The translations under genes were made by a program, and so were the position numbers. The notes below the pieces were generated by a model, which saw only the letters and a list, made by a program, of their open reading frames with translations, searched no databases and was not told the DNA's origin. From Microlunatus capsulatus (GTDB taxonomy: Bacteria; Actinomycetota; Actinomycetes; Propionibacteriales; Propionibacteriaceae), in assembly GCF_017876495.1 (NCBI RefSeq), contig NZ_JAGIOB010000001.1, forward strand, positions 1,736,001 through 1,800,000: a stretch of 64,000 nt of DNA, written 5' to 3'. Below, piece by piece: positions 18,739-61,488 of this stretch (position 1 is the stretch's first letter; every line of letters begins with the position of its first letter).

Positions 18739-19743
18739 ATGCTCCAGCCGCTGGGCATCAGCGCCGAGGCGGAGGCCGTCTACCTCGTCCTCGCGCCGAT
18801 CGGCAACGCCACCAGCGCAGAGCTGTCCGAGCTCAGCTCGGTCCCCTCCGACGAGCTCGAGCGCCGCCTCGACGAGCTGCGGAAGCTGGGGCTGGCCACC
18901 GAGGTCTCGCGCGGCACCTGGCGCTCGCTCCCGCTGCCCGACGTCGCCAACGCGCTCAAGGCCCAGCGGCTCTCGGAGCTGGAGATGGCGAGCCTGGCGG
19001 CGGAGTCGCTGCACAGCCACCTGCTGGCGGCCACCCAGAACCAGAGCGACGACATCCGGATCATCGTCGGCCGCGAGGCCATGTCGGCCATCAACAAGGA
19101 GCTCTGCTCGAAGGCGCAGAAAGAGATCTGCATGTTCGACAAGCCGCCCTACGTCGACGAGCGGGAGGCGGACGAGGAGCTCCTCGAGGAGGACGCCGAG
19201 GAGTGGAAGGCGCTGGACCGCGGCACCCAGCTGCGCTGCGTCTACCACCCGGGCTTCGACGCCGACCGGCTCAAGGAGCTCACCCTCTTCGCCGCGAAGG
19301 GCGAGAAGTCGCGGACCGCGCCCGTGCCGATGAAGCTGGTCATCGTCGACGCGTCGGTCGCACTCATCCCCTCCATGCGGTCCTACCTGCCGGGTCACGA
19401 GCTGCGGATGTCCATCGTGCGGCACCCGCTGCTGGTCGAGGCGCTCCAGTGGCTGTTCGAGGCGGTCTGGGACACCGCCGTCCCGATCGTCGCCTCGACC
19501 TACACCGAGAACGACCCCCGGCGCCAGATGCTGCTCTCGTTGCTGATGACCGGCTCGACCGACCAGGCCATCGCCAGCAACCTCGGGATCAACGTCCGGT
19601 CGGTCCGGCGCTGGATCTCCGAGCTGATGGACGAGCTCGGCGTCACCACCCGGCTGCAGCTCGGGGCGGCGATGGTCCGGGCCGAGTACATCCGGACCCA
19701 GACTTCCGGCATGATGGGCGCCACGGCCTCTTCGCGCCCCTAG
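18739..19743 (+). CDS. TrmB-like/LuxR-type transcriptional regulator
   Basis: A 334-aa regulator with two DNA-binding modules. Residues of about 1-70 form a winged helix of the TrmB type (GNATSAELSELSSVPSDELERRLDELRKLGLATEV). Residues of about 85-255 form a sensor region with no recognised catalytic motif. The C-terminal GerE/LuxR helix-turn-helix is LLSLLMTGSTDQAIASNLGINVRSVRRWI. A GGAGGAA site precedes ATG, and TACAGT (18700-18705) is a good -10. It converges on a small secreted-peptide gene whose upstream region holds a perfect palindrome, suggesting a dedicated regulator-peptide pair. No receiver domain or partner kinase is present. Confidence 0.85.
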   Translation: MLQPLGISAEAEAVYLVLAPIGNATSAELSELSSVPSDELERRLDELRKLGLATEVSRGTWRSLPLPDVANALKAQRLSELEMASLAAESLHSHLLAATQNQSDDIRIIVGREAMSAINKELCSKAQKEICMFDKPPYVDEREADEELLEEDAEEWKALDRGTQLRCVYHPGFDADRLKELTLFAAKGEKSRTAPVPMKLVIVDASVALIPSMRSYLPGHELRMSIVRHPLLVEALQWLFEAVWDTAVPIVASTYTENDPRRQMLLSLLMTGSTDQAIASNLGINVRSVRRWISELMDELGVTTRLQLGAAMVRAEYIRTQTSGMMGATASSRP

Positions 19744-19747
19744 CACG

Positions 19748-19787
19748 CAGCAGCGCCCGCACCCCCGGTGGGGTGCGGGCGCTGCTG
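19748..19787 (+). terminator. Strong terminator after the TrmB/LuxR-type regulator
   Basis: CAGCAGCGCCCGCACCCC (19748-19765) and its exact complement (19770-19787) form an 18-bp perfect stem with a 4-nt loop, starting 4 nt after the stop codon. Perfectly symmetric, so it may also stop transcripts arriving from the peptide gene on the other strand. Confidence 0.9.
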
Positions 19788-19983
19788 GTCGGGCGTGGCG
19801 ACCGGTCTCGCTGCGGGGAACAGCGGGCCGGGCGACGGGGTCGTGCTGTGGCTCGTCGCTAGCCGTTTTCCGGGACTGTCAGGGTTCCGGCCTCCCGAAG
19901 GATGCCGCGTTGGCCCTGACCTGCCCGTTCCCCGACCGGTGCGCCGGCGACGGGTCGCCCGCGCCCGGTGCCGGGAGCCGGCC

Positions 19984-20142
19984 TCAGATGCCGCGGCCGT
20001 CGAGCGTCGAGAACGAGCCCTTGATGCCGCGGCCGGCGTCGTCGGACGAGACGGAGGCGACGGTGCCGCCGACGAGGAGCACGGAGACGACGGCAGCGGT
20101 GACGCCGGCGACGAGCTTGCGAGCGGTACGAGAAGTGCGCAT
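19984..20142 (-). CDS. 52-aa secreted/membrane-anchored peptide with duplicated GRGI motif
   Basis: A short gene missed by length cut-offs. ATG 20142 is preceded by GGAAGGA at ideal spacing. The product starts MRTSRTARKLVAG, has a hydrophobic core of about 18 residues ending near GGTVASVSS (a Sec signal or anchor with possible Ala-Ser cleavage), then a tail DDAGRGIKGSFSTLDGRGI. The tail repeats GRGI twice around KGSFSTLD. No Cys, so it is not a lanthipeptide. The 5' leader is AT-richer than the rest of the window and contains an AGGGTT/AACCCT hairpin (20182-20205). It is convergent with a TrmB/LuxR-type regulator. Function unknown; a signalling peptide is a reasonable but untested idea. Confidence 0.65.
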   Translation of the reverse strand: MRTSRTARKLVAGVTAAVVSVLLVGGTVASVSSDDAGRGIKGSFSTLDGRGI

Positions 20143-20634
20143 GGGGGAATTCCTTCCGATTTTGTCCAGCCATCGGGGGGGAGGGTTAATGATGGCGGGA
20201 ACCCTGACGTTTCGAGAAGAAATCTATGCACCCGGGGCATTGGTCGTCACTACCCAGACGTGGCCACTACCGGACATGTCCTCAAGAGGACATAGCAAAA
20301 TCGCGTTAGGTGCCCTTTCTGGCCCCTACGCGTGAGATCTCCGATCACCGCACCCGGTCCACCGGCCCCCGTGGTCGTGGAATCGCTCGCCCCTGTGGAG
20401 GAGCCGTCACCGTGTGCCGGCCATCTCGACCGGTGGGAGAACCGGGGCGCCTTTCGTCGCGCCCTTTCCCGCCGATCAGCCTTTCCCCATTAGCGGGCGC
20501 CGTCAAGGGTGTCGGCCGACGTTTGAGGAATTAGTTGGTCCGCGCGGCGAAATCGCGCACGAACCGCCCGGCGTACCGTGGGTGTCAGCGGTCCCTGCCA
20601 GCATCGGCTCCGACGACGAGACCTGGGAGACACC
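20143..20634. other. 490-bp gene-free, AT-richer regulatory region
   Basis: No credible gene is seen on either strand. For the minus-strand peptide gene it holds a candidate -10 TAGATT (20221-20226), with a weak -35 about 18 nt upstream, a leader hairpin (20182-20205) and, about 70 bp upstream of the expected start of transcription, the palindrome at 20276-20293. The base composition from about 20150 to 20320 is visibly lower in GC than everything else in the window. The right part must also contain the promoter of the M4 peptidase gene, but no clear -35/-10 was recognised there. Confidence 0.6.
20276..20293. promoter_or_regulatory. Perfect 18-bp palindrome, candidate regulator operator
   Basis: ATGTCCTCAAGAGGACAT: 8-bp arms around an AA centre, perfect. 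It is intergenic, in the AT-richer block upstream of the peptide gene, at a position suited to class I activation of the candidate TAGATT promoter. The obvious candidate binder is the TrmB/LuxR-type regulator encoded at 18739-19743, by neighbourhood only. Confidence 0.6.
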
Positions 20635-22047
20635 ATGACCTGCACCTTCATCCCCCCGTACCTGCTCGACCACCTGGCCACCGCCGCGGCCGACACCCCG
20701 GCCGGCGCGTTCGGCCGCTCGACCCTGGTGCTGGACCAGCGGCTGCGCGAGCAGCGCCTCCAGCCGGCCCTGCTCCCCCGGGTCGCCACGGTGCGGGCCG
20801 GGGTCGTCGCCGAGCGCCGGGTCGTGCACAGCGCGGGCGGCACCGAGACGCTGCCGGGCACCCCCGTCCGCTCCGACGACGACCCGGCCAGCGGCGACGC
20901 CGCCGTCGACGAGGCCTTCGTCTCCTCGGGCCAGGTGTGGGACCTCTTCGCCGAGCTCTTCGACCGCCGCTCGGTCGACGGGCAGGGCAGCACCCTCTCG
21001 GTCACCGTGCACTACGGCCAGCGCTACGACAACGCCTTCTGGGACGGCAGCCAGCTGGTGTTCGGCGACGGCGACGGCGAGGTCTTCGAGCGCTTCACCA
21101 AGCCCATGGACGTGATGGCGCACGAGTTCACCCACGGGGTCACCCAGTTCAGCGCGAACCTCACCTACCAGGGCCAGTCGGGCGCCCTCAACGAGAGCGT
21201 GAGCGACGTCTTCGCCGCCCTGACCAAGCAGCGCGCGCTGGGCCAGGACGCCGGCGCGGCGGACTGGCTGATCGGCGAGGGGCTGTTCCGGCCCGGCATC
21301 GCCGCCCGCGCCCTGCGCTCGATGCTGGAGCCCGGCACCGCCTACGACGACCCGCAGCTGGGCCGCGACCCGCAGGTGGGCTCGATGGCCGACTACGTCG
21401 AGACCGAGGAGGACAACGGCGGGGTGCACCTCAACTCCGGGATCCCCAACCGCGCGTTCGCCCTGGCCGCGGTGGCCCTCGGCGGTCCCAGCTGGGAGCG
21501 CGCCGGACGGGTGTGGTACGACACGCTGACGGGCGGGGCCATCGGCTCCGACGTCGACTTCGTCGGCTTCGCGGAGGCCACCGTCGCCTCGGCAGCCCGG
21601 CTCTTCCCCGACGACGCCGACGTCGCGACCCGGGTCCGCGGCGCCTGGGCCGAGGTGGGCGTGCTCACCGCCGCGGAGACCCCCGGGGCCACGCCGCCGG
21701 TCCCGGTCGACGCCGCGCCCGCCACCCCGCCGGCTCCCGCGGCCCCTGGCGTCCCGGCGGCGGAGGCCCGGACGGTGGCGGTGCGGCGCAGCGGCGGGTT
21801 CGCCGGCGCCGTGCGCGCCGCGGAGCTCGACCTCGACGGCGACCCGCAGGGCCCGGAGGTGCGCCGGCTGCTGCTCGACACCGACCTCACCCGGCTGGCC
21901 GGCAGCCGGCCGGCGGCGGACCGCTTCGTCTACACCGTGGCGGTCGGGGAGTGGCAGCTGACGGTGCCCGAGCAGGACCTGACGCCCGAGCTCGACCAGG
22001 TGGTCCGGATCGTGCTGGGCGGCTCGGGCCGCCTCGACCTCGGCTGA
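20635..22047 (+). CDS. M4-family metallopeptidase (protealysin-like) with C-terminal emfourin-like inhibitor domain
   Basis: A 470-aa zinc protease. There is no signal peptide; the N-terminus FIPPYLLDHLA matches the short protealysin-type propeptide. Zinc motif HEFTH at residues 163-167, third ligand Glu187 in NESVSD, substrate-stabilising region VHLNSGIPNRAF. After the peptidase domain comes a Pro/Ala linker of about residues 345-378, then about 90 residues beginning VAVRRSGGFAGAV and ending EQDLTPELDQVVRIVL. The SGGFAG start and overall pattern resemble emfourin, the protealysin inhibitor normally encoded by a separate neighbouring gene. Fusion would place protease and inhibitor in one chain. 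The start ATG follows TGGGAGA. Confidence 0.85.
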   Translation: MTCTFIPPYLLDHLATAAADTPAGAFGRSTLVLDQRLREQRLQPALLPRVATVRAGVVAERRVVHSAGGTETLPGTPVRSDDDPASGDAAVDEAFVSSGQVWDLFAELFDRRSVDGQGSTLSVTVHYGQRYDNAFWDGSQLVFGDGDGEVFERFTKPMDVMAHEFTHGVTQFSANLTYQGQSGALNESVSDVFAALTKQRALGQDAGAADWLIGEGLFRPGIAARALRSMLEPGTAYDDPQLGRDPQVGSMADYVETEEDNGGVHLNSGIPNRAFALAAVALGGPSWERAGRVWYDTLTGGAIGSDVDFVGFAEATVASAARLFPDDADVATRVRGAWAEVGVLTAAETPGATPPVPVDAAPATPPAPAAPGVPAAEARTVAVRRSGGFAGAVRAAELDLDGDPQGPEVRRLLLDTDLTRLAGSRPAADRFVYTVAVGEWQLTVPEQDLTPELDQVVRIVLGGSGRLDLG

Positions 22048-43972: not shown

Positions 43973-44800
43973 TCAGCCCTTGACGGAGCCGGCGGCCATG
44001 CCCTCGACGATCTTGCGGTTGAAGAAGACGAACATGACCAGCGGCGGGATCGCGACCAGCAGGATGCCCGCGAACAGCAGGTTGTACTGGGTGTTGAACT
44101 GGCTCTGGAAGTTGAACAGGGTCAGCTGGACGGTGGCGTTCTGGGTGCCCGGCAGGAAGTAGAGCGGGTTCTGGAAGTCGTTGTAGATCGCCACCGACTG
44201 CAGGATCACCACGGTCATGATCACCGAGCGCAGCACCGGGAAGATCACCTGGAAGAACGTGCGGACCGGGCTGGCGCCGTCCACCCGGGCGGCCTCGTCG
44301 AGCTCGCGCGGGATGCCGGCGATGAAAGCCCGGAACAGCAGGATGCTGAAGGGCAGCCCGAAGGCGATCTCGACGAGGATCAGCCCCGGCATGGTCTTGA
44401 ACAGCCCGACGCTCTGCAGCACCCAGATCGTCGGCACGACGGCCGGGGGGACGATGAGCCCGGCCAGCACCAGCAGCCCGACGGCGACGTTGAGCTTGCC
44501 GGTCCGGCGCTGCAGGACGTAGGCGATCATCGAGCCCAGCACCACCAGCACGGTCACGCTCACCACGGTGAGGACCACCGAGTTGATGAACGCGATCACC
44601 ATGAGGAAGTCCCGGGCCCGCACCACCGCGACGAGGTTGTCGAGCAGCACGAAGCGGGTCGGCAGGGTGAAGGCCAGGTCCGCGGCCTCCCGGACGCTCT
44701 TGCTGGCGATCGAGACCACGAACAGGAACGGGATGACGAACACGACGAAGGTGACCAGGATCGACGCCGACCCCAGCAGGGTGCCCCGCGCGTTCTTCAT
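43973..44800 (-). CDS. Carbohydrate ABC transporter permease (CUT1, MalG-like)
   Basis: A 275-aa six-helix permease. The ATPase-docking EAA loop is ELDEAARVDGASPVRTFFQVIFPVL, close to the end as usual. The C-terminus QYNLLFAGILLVAIPPLVMFVFFNRKIVEGMAAGSVKG is typical of MalG-type subunits (terminal GSVKG). ATG 44800 shares one base with the stop of the upstream permease (TGATG). Together with the next two genes it imports a sugar, here probably rhamnose oligosaccharides or rhamnosides. Confidence 0.94.
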   Translation of the reverse strand: MKNARGTLLGSASILVTFVVFVIPFLFVVSIASKSVREAADLAFTLPTRFVLLDNLVAVVRARDFLMVIAFINSVVLTVVSVTVLVVLGSMIAYVLQRRTGKLNVAVGLLVLAGLIVPPAVVPTIWVLQSVGLFKTMPGLILVEIAFGLPFSILLFRAFIAGIPRELDEAARVDGASPVRTFFQVIFPVLRSVIMTVVILQSVAIYNDFQNPLYFLPGTQNATVQLTLFNFQSQFNTQYNLLFAGILLVAIPPLVMFVFFNRKIVEGMAAGSVKG

Positions 44801-45735
44801 CAGCTGACCTCGTTCTTGTTGAGCCAGTAGGTGAGGGGCACGACGATCAGGGTCACGAGCAGGAAGAGCACCACGTTGCCCGCCGTCGAGAGGCCGAAGA
44901 ACCCGGCCTGGTACTGCTTGTAGATCACCGACGCGATGACGTCGGAGGCGAACCCCGGGCCGCCGCGCGTCATGGACCAGATGAGGTCGAAGGAGCGCAG
45001 GCCGCCGATCAGCGAGAGCGTGATCACGCTCGCGGTGGCCGGCTTGGCCAGCGGCAGGGTGATCCGGCGGAAGACCTGCCAGCGGCTGGCCCCGTCCACC
45101 CGGGCCGCCTCGTAGTACTCCTGCGGGATGGAGACCAGGCCGGCGATGAAGATCACCGTGGCCAGCCCGACGCCCTTCCAGATGTCGACCAGCCCGATCG
45201 AGTAGATGGCGAGGTCGGGGTCGGTGAGCCACCCCGGCCCGCTCACCCCGACGGCGCCCAGCGCCTTGTTGACCAGCCCCCTCTCCGGGTCGAGCAGCAC
45301 CGTGAAGGTGATGCCCACCCCGATGGTGCTCACGAGGACGGGGAAGAAGATCACCGAGCGCAGGTAGCCCCGGGCGATGATCTGCGACGTCAGCAGGACC
45401 GCCAGGGCCATCCCGATGACGACCTTCAGCCCCGAGGTCATGAACGCGTAGATGAGCGTGTTGCGCAGGCCGATCAGCAGCGCCTGCTCCTGGAAGAACG
45501 TGCGGTAGTTGTCCAGGCCGATCCAGGTGGAGGTGAACAGGTCCCAACGGGTGAAGGAGTAGTAGAAGGAGGCGAACGTCGGGATCACGAAGAAGAGCCC
45601 GTAGATCACCGCCCCCGGCAGGTAGAACCAGTAGGGGTAGGGCCCCGTCCGCCCGCGAGCGGTGGGGCTGGGCCGGGCACCCGGGCCGGCCGCCGCGAGC
45701 CGCGATGTGTCCGTGGTGCTGAGGGTGTTGGCCAT
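44800..45735 (-). CDS. Sugar ABC transporter permease (CUT1, MalF-like)
   Basis: A 311-aa six-helix permease. N-terminal PYWFYLPGAVIYGLFFVIPTFASFYYSFTRWD; the EAA loop is YYEAARVDGASRWQVFRRITLPLAKPA. No ATP-binding subunit is encoded nearby, so an MsmK/UgpC-type shared ATPase elsewhere must energise the complex, a common situation in actinobacteria. It lies 112 bp after the binding-protein gene, the gap holding hairpins and repeats. Confidence 0.94.
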   Translation of the reverse strand: MANTLSTTDTSRLAAAGPGARPSPTARGRTGPYPYWFYLPGAVIYGLFFVIPTFASFYYSFTRWDLFTSTWIGLDNYRTFFQEQALLIGLRNTLIYAFMTSGLKVVIGMALAVLLTSQIIARGYLRSVIFFPVLVSTIGVGITFTVLLDPERGLVNKALGAVGVSGPGWLTDPDLAIYSIGLVDIWKGVGLATVIFIAGLVSIPQEYYEAARVDGASRWQVFRRITLPLAKPATASVITLSLIGGLRSFDLIWSMTRGGPGFASDVIASVIYKQYQAGFFGLSTAGNVVLFLLVTLIVVPLTYWLNKNEVS

Positions 45736-60486: not shown

Positions 60487-61488
60487 TCACTCGCTGAGGA
60501 CGAAGTTGTCCAGCTTGTCGGCGTTGTCCTTGGTGATGAGGACGCAGTCGATGGCCTGCTTCTCCTCGGGCACACCGGTCTCGCCGCCGGTGAGCACGCC
60601 GTTCAGCTGCTCGACGGCCTTCGTGGTGCCCTCGACGATCGGCTGCAGCACGGTGGCGACCATCTCGCCGTCCTTGACCGCGTCGGCCGCGTCCTGGTTG
60701 CCGTCGAAGCCGAGGACCTTGACCTGGTCGAGCTTCTTGGCCTCCTTGAGCGCGTTGATCGCGCCGAGGGCCATCTCGTCGTTGCCCGCGATGACGCCGT
60801 CGATGTCCGGGTTCTTGGACAGCAGCGACTCCATCTTCTCCTGGCCCTCCTGGCGGTCCCAGTTGGCGATCTCCTCGCCGACCTTCTTGAGGTCGGGGTA
60901 CTGGGAGATGACCGACTTGTAGCCGTCGGAGCGGACCTGGGCGTTGTTGTCGCTCGGCTTGCCGAGGAGCTCGACGTAGGTGCCCTTGTAGTCCATGGCC
61001 TCCGACCACGCCTCGGCGCCGGCGACGGCACCCTGGGCGTTGTTGGAGACGATCTGGGCCTTGGCCAGGCCGGTCTTGCTGATCTCGGCGTTCACCAGGA
61101 CGACCGGGATCTGCGCGTCGACGAGCTTCTGCACGGCGGCGACGCTCTCGTCGGCGCCGGCCGGGTCGAGGACGACGCCCTTGACCTTGTCGTTGATCGC
61201 GGTCTCGATGAGGCTGTTCTGGGTCTCCGGGTCGTTCTTGTGCGCGGAGGTGGTCGTCTCGTAGCCCAGCTTCTCGGCCTCGGCGACGGCCGTGTCGGTC
61301 TCGGCCTTCCAGTACGGGTTGGACGGGTCGACGGTGATGACCGCGATCGTCCCGCCGGCGGCGGCCGCGGACGAGGAGGCGCCGGAAGCAGCGGGCTCGG
61401 CGGCGTCGCCACCGCCGCCACCGCAGGCGGCGAGGCTGAGCAGGACCGCGCTGGCGAGCGCGGTGCGGAGGACCAGGCGAGGTCGCAT
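60487..61488 (-). CDS. Sugar ABC transporter substrate-binding lipoprotein (CUT2, RbsB-like)
   Basis: A 333-aa type I periplasmic-binding protein. Lipobox LAAC with Cys22 followed by Gly-rich and Ser/Ala linker. Mature: TIAVITVDPSNPYWKAETDTAVAEAEKLGYE, VVLDPAGADESVAAVQKL, IDGVIAGNDEMALGAINALKEA and VLGFDGNQDAADAVKDGEMVATVLQ, all RbsB-family. The gene lies downstream of its permease, separated by 183 bp with a strong hairpin. Likely ligand: a pentitol, tetritol or similar polyol, from context only. Confidence 0.94.
   Translation of the reverse strand: MRPRLVLRTALASAVLLSLAACGGGGGDAAEPAASGASSSAAAAGGTIAVITVDPSNPYWKAETDTAVAEAEKLGYETTTSAHKNDPETQNSLIETAINDKVKGVVLDPAGADESVAAVQKLVDAQIPVVLVNAEISKTGLAKAQIVSNNAQGAVAGAEAWSEAMDYKGTYVELLGKPSDNNAQVRSDGYKSVISQYPDLKKVGEEIANWDRQEGQEKMESLLSKNPDIDGVIAGNDEMALGAINALKEAKKLDQVKVLGFDGNQDAADAVKDGEMVATVLQPIVEGTTKAVEQLNGVLTGGETGVPEEKQAIDCVLITKDNADKLDNFVLSE

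Follow-up and report, generated by a model that had tools for sequence, protein, structure and literature searches.

The locus and its features

The window is the whole 64,000-nucleotide stretch analysed here, which corresponds to positions 1736001–1800000 of the 4.41-Mb single-contig genome of Microlunatus capsulatus. In this window, a regulator gene on the plus strand converges with a small gene on the minus strand. This arrangement had been proposed in a preliminary description, and the list of open reading frames (ORFs) confirms both genes, with products of 334 and 52 residues. A −10 box and an operator lie upstream of the small gene, and a peptidase gene follows beyond the operator. The features are listed below.

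18739–19743, plus strand: regulator gene; winged helix at about residues 1–65, long helix at 66–100, PLD-like domain at about 103–252, LuxR-type helix-turn-helix (HTH) at about 260–325
19045–19494, plus strand: PLD-like part of the regulator (residues 103–252), a putative sensor for a ligand
19516–19713, plus strand: LuxR/GerE-like C-terminal HTH of the regulator, residues 260–325
19750–19785, unstranded: inverted repeat directly after the regulator stop codon, 16 bp perfect with a 4-nt loop; terminator-like, a candidate terminator
19984–20142, minus strand: gene of the 52-residue precursor; the product has a signal-like N-terminus and carries GRGI twice, with the second copy as its last four residues
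20152–20157, minus strand: ribosome-binding site GGAAGG before the ATG of the 52-residue ORF
20169–20196, minus strand: hairpin with a C-rich loop and a 6-bp stem in the peptide mRNA leader; weak candidate
20221–20226, minus strand: −10 box TAGATT on the peptide side of the operator, at a distance of 34 bp from its edge
20261–20292, unstranded: tandem-dyad operator TGGCCACTACCGGACATGTCCTCAAGAGGACA, 32 bp with one mismatch, holding most of 20276–20293
20302–20332, unstranded: inverted element CGCGTTAGG...CCTACGCG, adjoining the operator on the peptidase side
20635–22047, plus strand: M4 (thermolysin-family) peptidase with a C-terminal emfourin domain (Pfam), beyond the operator

Architecture and distribution of the regulator

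In an AlphaFold2 model built from 18 orthologues, the regulator begins with a winged helix and a long helix, followed by a PLD-like domain and, at the C-terminus, an HTH. The mean pLDDT is 76.6, and the arrangement of the domains is uncertain because the pTM is only 0.48. The best solved fold matches are TrmBL2 and TrmB over residues 1–250, and PLD-fold proteins and enzymes over residues 103–252. The winged helix, sensor-like domain and second HTH described earlier are seen again in the predicted model and its fold matches. Pfam TrmB scores 22.5 bits on the regulator (cut-off 25.6) and Pfam GerE 21.4 bits (cut-off 23.5). Despite the sub-cut-off score, GerE-like is the likeliest assignment for the C-terminal HTH, in which R287–W292 is invariant among the 18 orthologues.

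The regulator is present in all 20 genomes of the genus, in genome G014 as no more than a fragment, at the edge of a contig. At E ≤ 1e-20 it was found in 26 of 198 family genomes, and the named contigs that carry it belong to Microlunatus, Friedmanniella, other Propionibacteriaceae and Auraticoccus.

A tandem operator and its promoter geometry

The site at 20276–20293 (ATGTCCTCAAGAGGACAT) had been described as an 18-bp perfect palindrome, yet its 8-bp arms surround a non-palindromic AA. We rejected the palindrome reading and assign the site to the 32-bp tandem dyad at 20261–20292, whose consensus is TGTCC-N6-GGACA-TGTCC-N6-GGACA. Allowing up to three mismatches, we find 63 sites of this tandem operator, spread over all 20 genus genomes, compared with 3 sites for the reversed control. 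With up to two mismatches, 41 sites remain in 19 of 20 genomes and the control yields none; the 175 other family genomes hold a single site (G068). The dyad alone is not enriched over chance in the window, where TGTCCN6GGACA with up to two mismatches gives 20 matches against 34 expected. Contrary to what had been stated, the block around the operator is also not the only AT-richer one: the GC fraction is 0.652 at 20001–20500 and likewise 0.652 at 44001–44500, followed by 0.654 at 60501–61000 and 0.656 at 44501–45000. From the co-occurrence and adjacency of regulator and operator, we infer that the regulator binds the tandem site. A sequence similar to the inverted element at 20302–20332 stands beside the operator at four other loci (L075, L078, L083, L084) and partly at L080.

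The candidate −10 box had been placed about 70 bp from the palindrome; the box that recurs across the genus is instead TAGATT, 34 bp from the operator edge. All 18 precursor genes that we located in the genus are preceded by an operator (0–5 mismatches) and a −10 box 33–35 bp away from it, and the distance from operator to ATG is 101–119 bp in 17 of the 18. The precursor of locus L087 fits only in a second operator register with 5 mismatches, which was read by eye. Around the 63 operators, TANNNT lies at offset 33 or 34 on 37 of the 126 sides, against a background mean of 0.17 per offset at 60–240. A box at 31–37 is found on exactly one side of 44 operators, on both sides of none, and on neither side of 19. 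At the window operator, the box was found on the peptide side only; on the side of the M4 peptidase, no −10 box at the operator spacing was found.

An activator centred near −61.5 occupies a class-I position. When the box is placed at −12 to −7, the operator centre falls at about −61.5, which points to a class-I activator and suggests that the bound regulator activates. Regulator, operator and peptide gene had been proposed to belong together, and the same unit recurs in 18 of 20 genomes with the operator and −10 layout before all 18 peptide genes. On these genome comparisons, we regard a conserved regulator–operator–peptide unit as very probable.

Precursor genes share position, promoter and repeat design

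In 18 of 20 genus genomes, a small precursor gene lies in the same position, convergent with the regulator. At this position in G007 stands instead a gene for a secreted-looking TAP-like hydrolase, driven by the operator (a gene of the M4 peptidase type is also found in the corresponding region), and in G017 the contig ends 280 bp past the regulator, so that the position cannot be assessed. The precursors show little or almost no sequence conservation across the genus. Searching near homologues for an ORF of the MRxSRxxRKLVAG type, as had been proposed, would not have succeeded; the sequence of the window peptide can be recognised in G006 only, among 19 relatives. Locating the peptide gene by similarity was therefore rejected, since the 22 other matches listed besides G006 all have E values of 0.04 or worse; plasmid sequences searched with the window peptide gave no match. 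In G006, both GRGI copies are replaced by GRGV, and the comparison with the window precursor over 51 codons gives dN 0.13, dS 0.32 and dN/dS of about 0.4. What is conserved among precursors is position, promoter and repeat design.

The repeat design is seen in 15 of the 18 precursors, which carry 2–27 copies of a short species-specific motif: GRGI, GRGV, VNGV, VNSI, VNSL, GNSL, VNGL, AHNL, INGV, LNGA, INGS, VNGF, GHTL or GHSL. The motif forms the exact C-terminus in 12 of these 15. The C-terminus is not on the repeat in L076 and L086, and the L085 precursor is frame-broken. The precursors of L075, L078 and L084 end in one GRGY and have no repeats. Seven repeat copies in L090 are encoded by seven DNA versions and 27 copies in L076 by 19, the differences being synonymous. 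Such variation at synonymous codons is as expected if selection keeps the amino acids, and at the level of codons it demonstrates selection on the repeats. Motif classes cluster on the regulator tree, where their 7 groups need a minimum of 7 changes. For the window precursor, the candidate mature peptides are short and end in GRGI.

A hydropathy test, which is cruder than a dedicated signal-peptide predictor, assigns a signal-like N-terminus to 15 of the 18 precursors, L089 among them being borderline. No such N-terminus was found by this test in L079, L087 and L088, which keep repeats, operator and promoter, and these three are the strongest sequence evidence against an export step. They would fit a peptide that acts within the producing cell, its repeats binding the regulator as feedback inhibitor or co-activator. 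We consider this improbable, given the signal-like N-termini of the other 15 precursors.

Homologues outside the genus

The expectation that homologous regulators would be accompanied by a peptide gene and a palindrome holds within the genus, where the unit is kept in 18 of 20 genomes, and fails outside it (36 loci). Most of these 36 loci are without a convincing tiny secreted peptide, and an operator-like tandem site with up to four mismatches is found at 4 of them. This absence suggests that the pairing is characteristic of this orthologous group and that any parallels elsewhere may be separate ones.

The outside loci also bear on the proposal that the neighbours are unrelated, with the small ORF untranslated or the operator belonging to another regulator. 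Homologues that mostly lack both peptide and operator would fit it. It leaves aside, however, the ribosome-binding site, the synonymous repeat variation and the constant promoter distance in 18 of 18 precursor genes, and the operator is confined to the genus of the full-length orthologue except for the one site in G068. We give this proposal very little weight, less than that of an intracellular peptide.

Convincing small peptides outside the genus were found only in genus g19, in both of its genomes. There, secreted-looking peptides ending in NGFGW or GGFQW stand divergent from distant regulator homologues (L161 at about 1024, L162 at about 1044). The L162 peptide carries GGFQW twice, C-terminally; the L161 peptide was seen in one scan and missed by a stricter filter, whose further ORFs we judged unconvincing. 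In Auraticoccus, the regulator is full-length, and neither a tandem operator (up to two mismatches) nor a tiny peptide was found. At L108 5135–7246 of Auraticoccus, a 703-residue secreted-looking hydrolase with a DGQI-type repeat insert converges with the regulator; the G007 TAP-like protein is similar to it. In other families of the order, operator-like tandem sites lie just upstream of homologous regulator genes (L171 1460–1491, and L221), which suggests self-regulation of these homologues. Large genomes of genus g30 of the order (G198–G279) hold at least 3–5 regulator paralogues each.

Hairpin RNAs with a shared C-rich loop beside the operator

Copies of ACCCCCGAG on the outward strand number 24 in the 27 kb within 220 nt of the 63 operators, compared with 1 in the 237 kb at 220–2220 nt. 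The 24 copies sit at 20 of the 63 operators and form hairpins with the loop CCCCCGAG (C loop). The hairpin lies on the same side as the −10 box at 16 of these 20 operators and on the opposite side at none; at the remaining 4, no −10 box was found. Around the 24 loops, 89.3% of the cells of the 16-bp stem are paired, against 52.7% after shuffling. Doubly changed cells number 137, against 48 in shuffled stems, and the covariation score is 0.877, against 0.216 for shuffled and 0.16–0.23 for slid stems. The weak hairpin in the peptide mRNA leader at 20169–20196 differs from these 16-bp small-RNA hairpins.

The loop letters were used to choose the sequences of alignment A2 and of a table of 46 hairpins, so that loop invariance in both follows from the selection. 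Three tests are independent of it: stem covariation, the near/far count and a search with a covariance model. This model finds 103 copies in 20 of the 20 genus genomes, and at E ≤ 0.001 it matches 20 of 195 family genomes, all within the genus. At most 24 of the 103 matches belong to alignment A2, 46 more hairpins were read in 40 loci, and about 33 lie outside both sets. Of the 46 further hairpins, 10 have an in-register operator at 4–6 mismatches and 36 have none. Of the 10 copies in the genome that contains the window, 7 are no more than 125 nt away from an operator. The many loop RNAs that lack this operator suggest that the genus uses the loop RNA as a general device, only a part of which would be under this switch.

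At L183, L184, L188 and other loci, the C-loop hairpin stands behind other promoters with a CGATG-type −10-like sequence, and in L183 and L184 a CRP-like TGTGAC...TCACA lies upstream of it. We also notice an element (G/A/C)ATCGGGGG, complementary to the loop segment CCCCCGA, at eight loci (L062, L064, L066, L067, L071, L074, L126, L131). It lies on the operator side away from the C-loop RNA or stands alone, with two copies in L126, and it is possible that it serves as a target or sponge of the loop RNA. The notion that each operator serves two divergent RNAs, one carrying the C loop and the other a complementary UCGGGGG loop, did not hold up in that form, since the operator-spaced −10 box is found on one side only and the G element folds differently from locus to locus; it stays a lead.

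A proposed model of self-inducing peptide signalling

On the basis of these comparisons, we propose a self-inducing peptide signalling module that activates small RNAs, to which we assign a probability of roughly 0.6. In this model, the 52-residue precursor would be exported and cut down to a short peptide with GRGI as its C-terminus, which would re-enter the cell and bind the regulator at its PLD-like domain. Probably as two dimers, the regulator would then occupy the 32-bp tandem operator and activate the peptide gene, giving positive feedback. Elsewhere in the genome, it would activate some species-specific genes as well as the small RNAs with the CCCCCGAG loop. These RNAs would probably pair with G-rich mRNA starts, and the complement of CUCGGGGG at start codons is a candidate target. 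With regard to re-entry, SBP_bac_5 proteins can serve oligopeptide import and are widespread in bacteria; oligopeptide-binding members were found in 20 of 20 genus genomes.

Peptide sensing by the regulator is a good inference, and we hold it with reasonable though limited confidence. The PDB entries with TrmB-type PLD domains are titled sugar-binding, which we count against it, and we know of no peptide ligand for such a domain. The main rival reading is that the regulator runs the operator regulon in response to a sugar, lipid or other metabolite, and that the repeat peptide is an output rather than the signal, for instance a surface, adhesive, anti-competitor or protease-related peptide. 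The fold of the putative sensor, shared with the TrmB sugar-binding domain and with PLD enzymes, agrees with this reading, as does the M4 peptidase next door. Some other operator-linked genes point the same way. In L118 (2619–3263), the operator precedes a Flp-pilin-like small-protein gene followed by TadE, with a similar pair in L139; the Flp-pilin label was given by eye, Pfam having no match for that protein. An S13 (cell-wall) peptidase is linked to the operator in L132. Apart from these, L133 has an operator-linked short-chain dehydrogenase. Fast-changing exported peptides are also consistent with antagonism. A metabolite sensor, however, leaves unexplained why no other operator target is as constant as the peptide gene, which neighbours the regulator in 18 of 20 genomes, and why the repeat is the exact C-terminus in 12 of 15 precursors. 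We therefore consider an output peptide unlikely, while rating it well above the other alternatives, and prefer peptide sensing.

Relation to known systems

The RRNPP-type systems Rap, PlcR, PrgX and Rgg are cytoplasmic peptide receptors with small exported precursors. The present unit is similar in that a small precursor gene lies beside a cytoplasmic DNA-binding regulator, with a proposed positive feedback and no kinase. A small, predicted exported precursor gene beside the receptor is found in 18 of 20 genomes (by hydropathy, export is predicted for 15 of the 18). In contrast to the TPR-based RRNPP receptors, the regulator here combines a TrmB/PLD part with a LuxR-type HTH, and no TPR-repeat peptide-binding domain was found in its AlphaFold2 model or fold matches. 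The frequent multiple repetition of the motif, the occurrence in Actinobacteria and the small-RNA regulon differ as well. The archaeal, sugar-responsive TrmB and TrmBL2 share the winged helix and PLD-like effector domain seen in the regulator model, whereas the extra C-terminal LuxR-type HTH, the peptide-gene linkage and the sub-cut-off Pfam TrmB score set the regulator apart.

Vibrio Qrr and S. aureus RNAIII are small RNAs of quorum sensing. The likeness is that one signal regulator, here a predicted one, drives several related regulatory RNAs; regulator, signal and RNA family are all different. Whether the module represents a new class of peptide communication seems to us evenly balanced. 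Such a class would combine hypervariable, often tandem-repeat precursors with a TrmB/PLD-LuxR receptor that turns on its own precursor and genus-specific CCCCCGAG-loop RNAs, as a Gram-positive counterpart of the Qrr/RNAIII logic made from unrelated parts. If true, it would add a receptor superfamily to bacterial peptide signalling, and Actinobacteria would gain a peptide-based system for which a regulon is predicted. The operator, the promoter spacing and the candidate mature peptides are defined closely enough for direct testing. The repeat unit varies by species and the regulator and operator are retained, which makes the group a natural experiment on the divergence of signal and receptor. 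The loop RNA family is of interest by itself, as the same loop also stands behind other promoters; the predicted small-RNA part of the regulon is not visible from a single window. A search of the open-access literature found no description of this system, and the consulted passages of PMC4748050 mention none.

Like the loop RNAs, 6C RNA (RF01066) and mycobacterial B11 are hairpins from Actinobacteria whose loops contain a run of C. The hairpins described here differ in their longer stems, in the loop CCCCCGAG and in being restricted to the genus among 195 family genomes. The 6C model exceeded its gathering cut-off in none of the 20 genus genomes, 5 of which gave a match with E ≤ 1, and no RF01066 match was found in the 7 loci tested. 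We dropped the identification with 6C RNAs, all 20 genomes being below the RF01066 cut-off. More generally, Rfam gave no match above the gathering score for the hairpins of 16 loci and none in 7 loci at permissive thresholds. Its two matches in the window are at chance level. At L066 (709–774), a Guanidine-III riboswitch scores above the Rfam cut-off.
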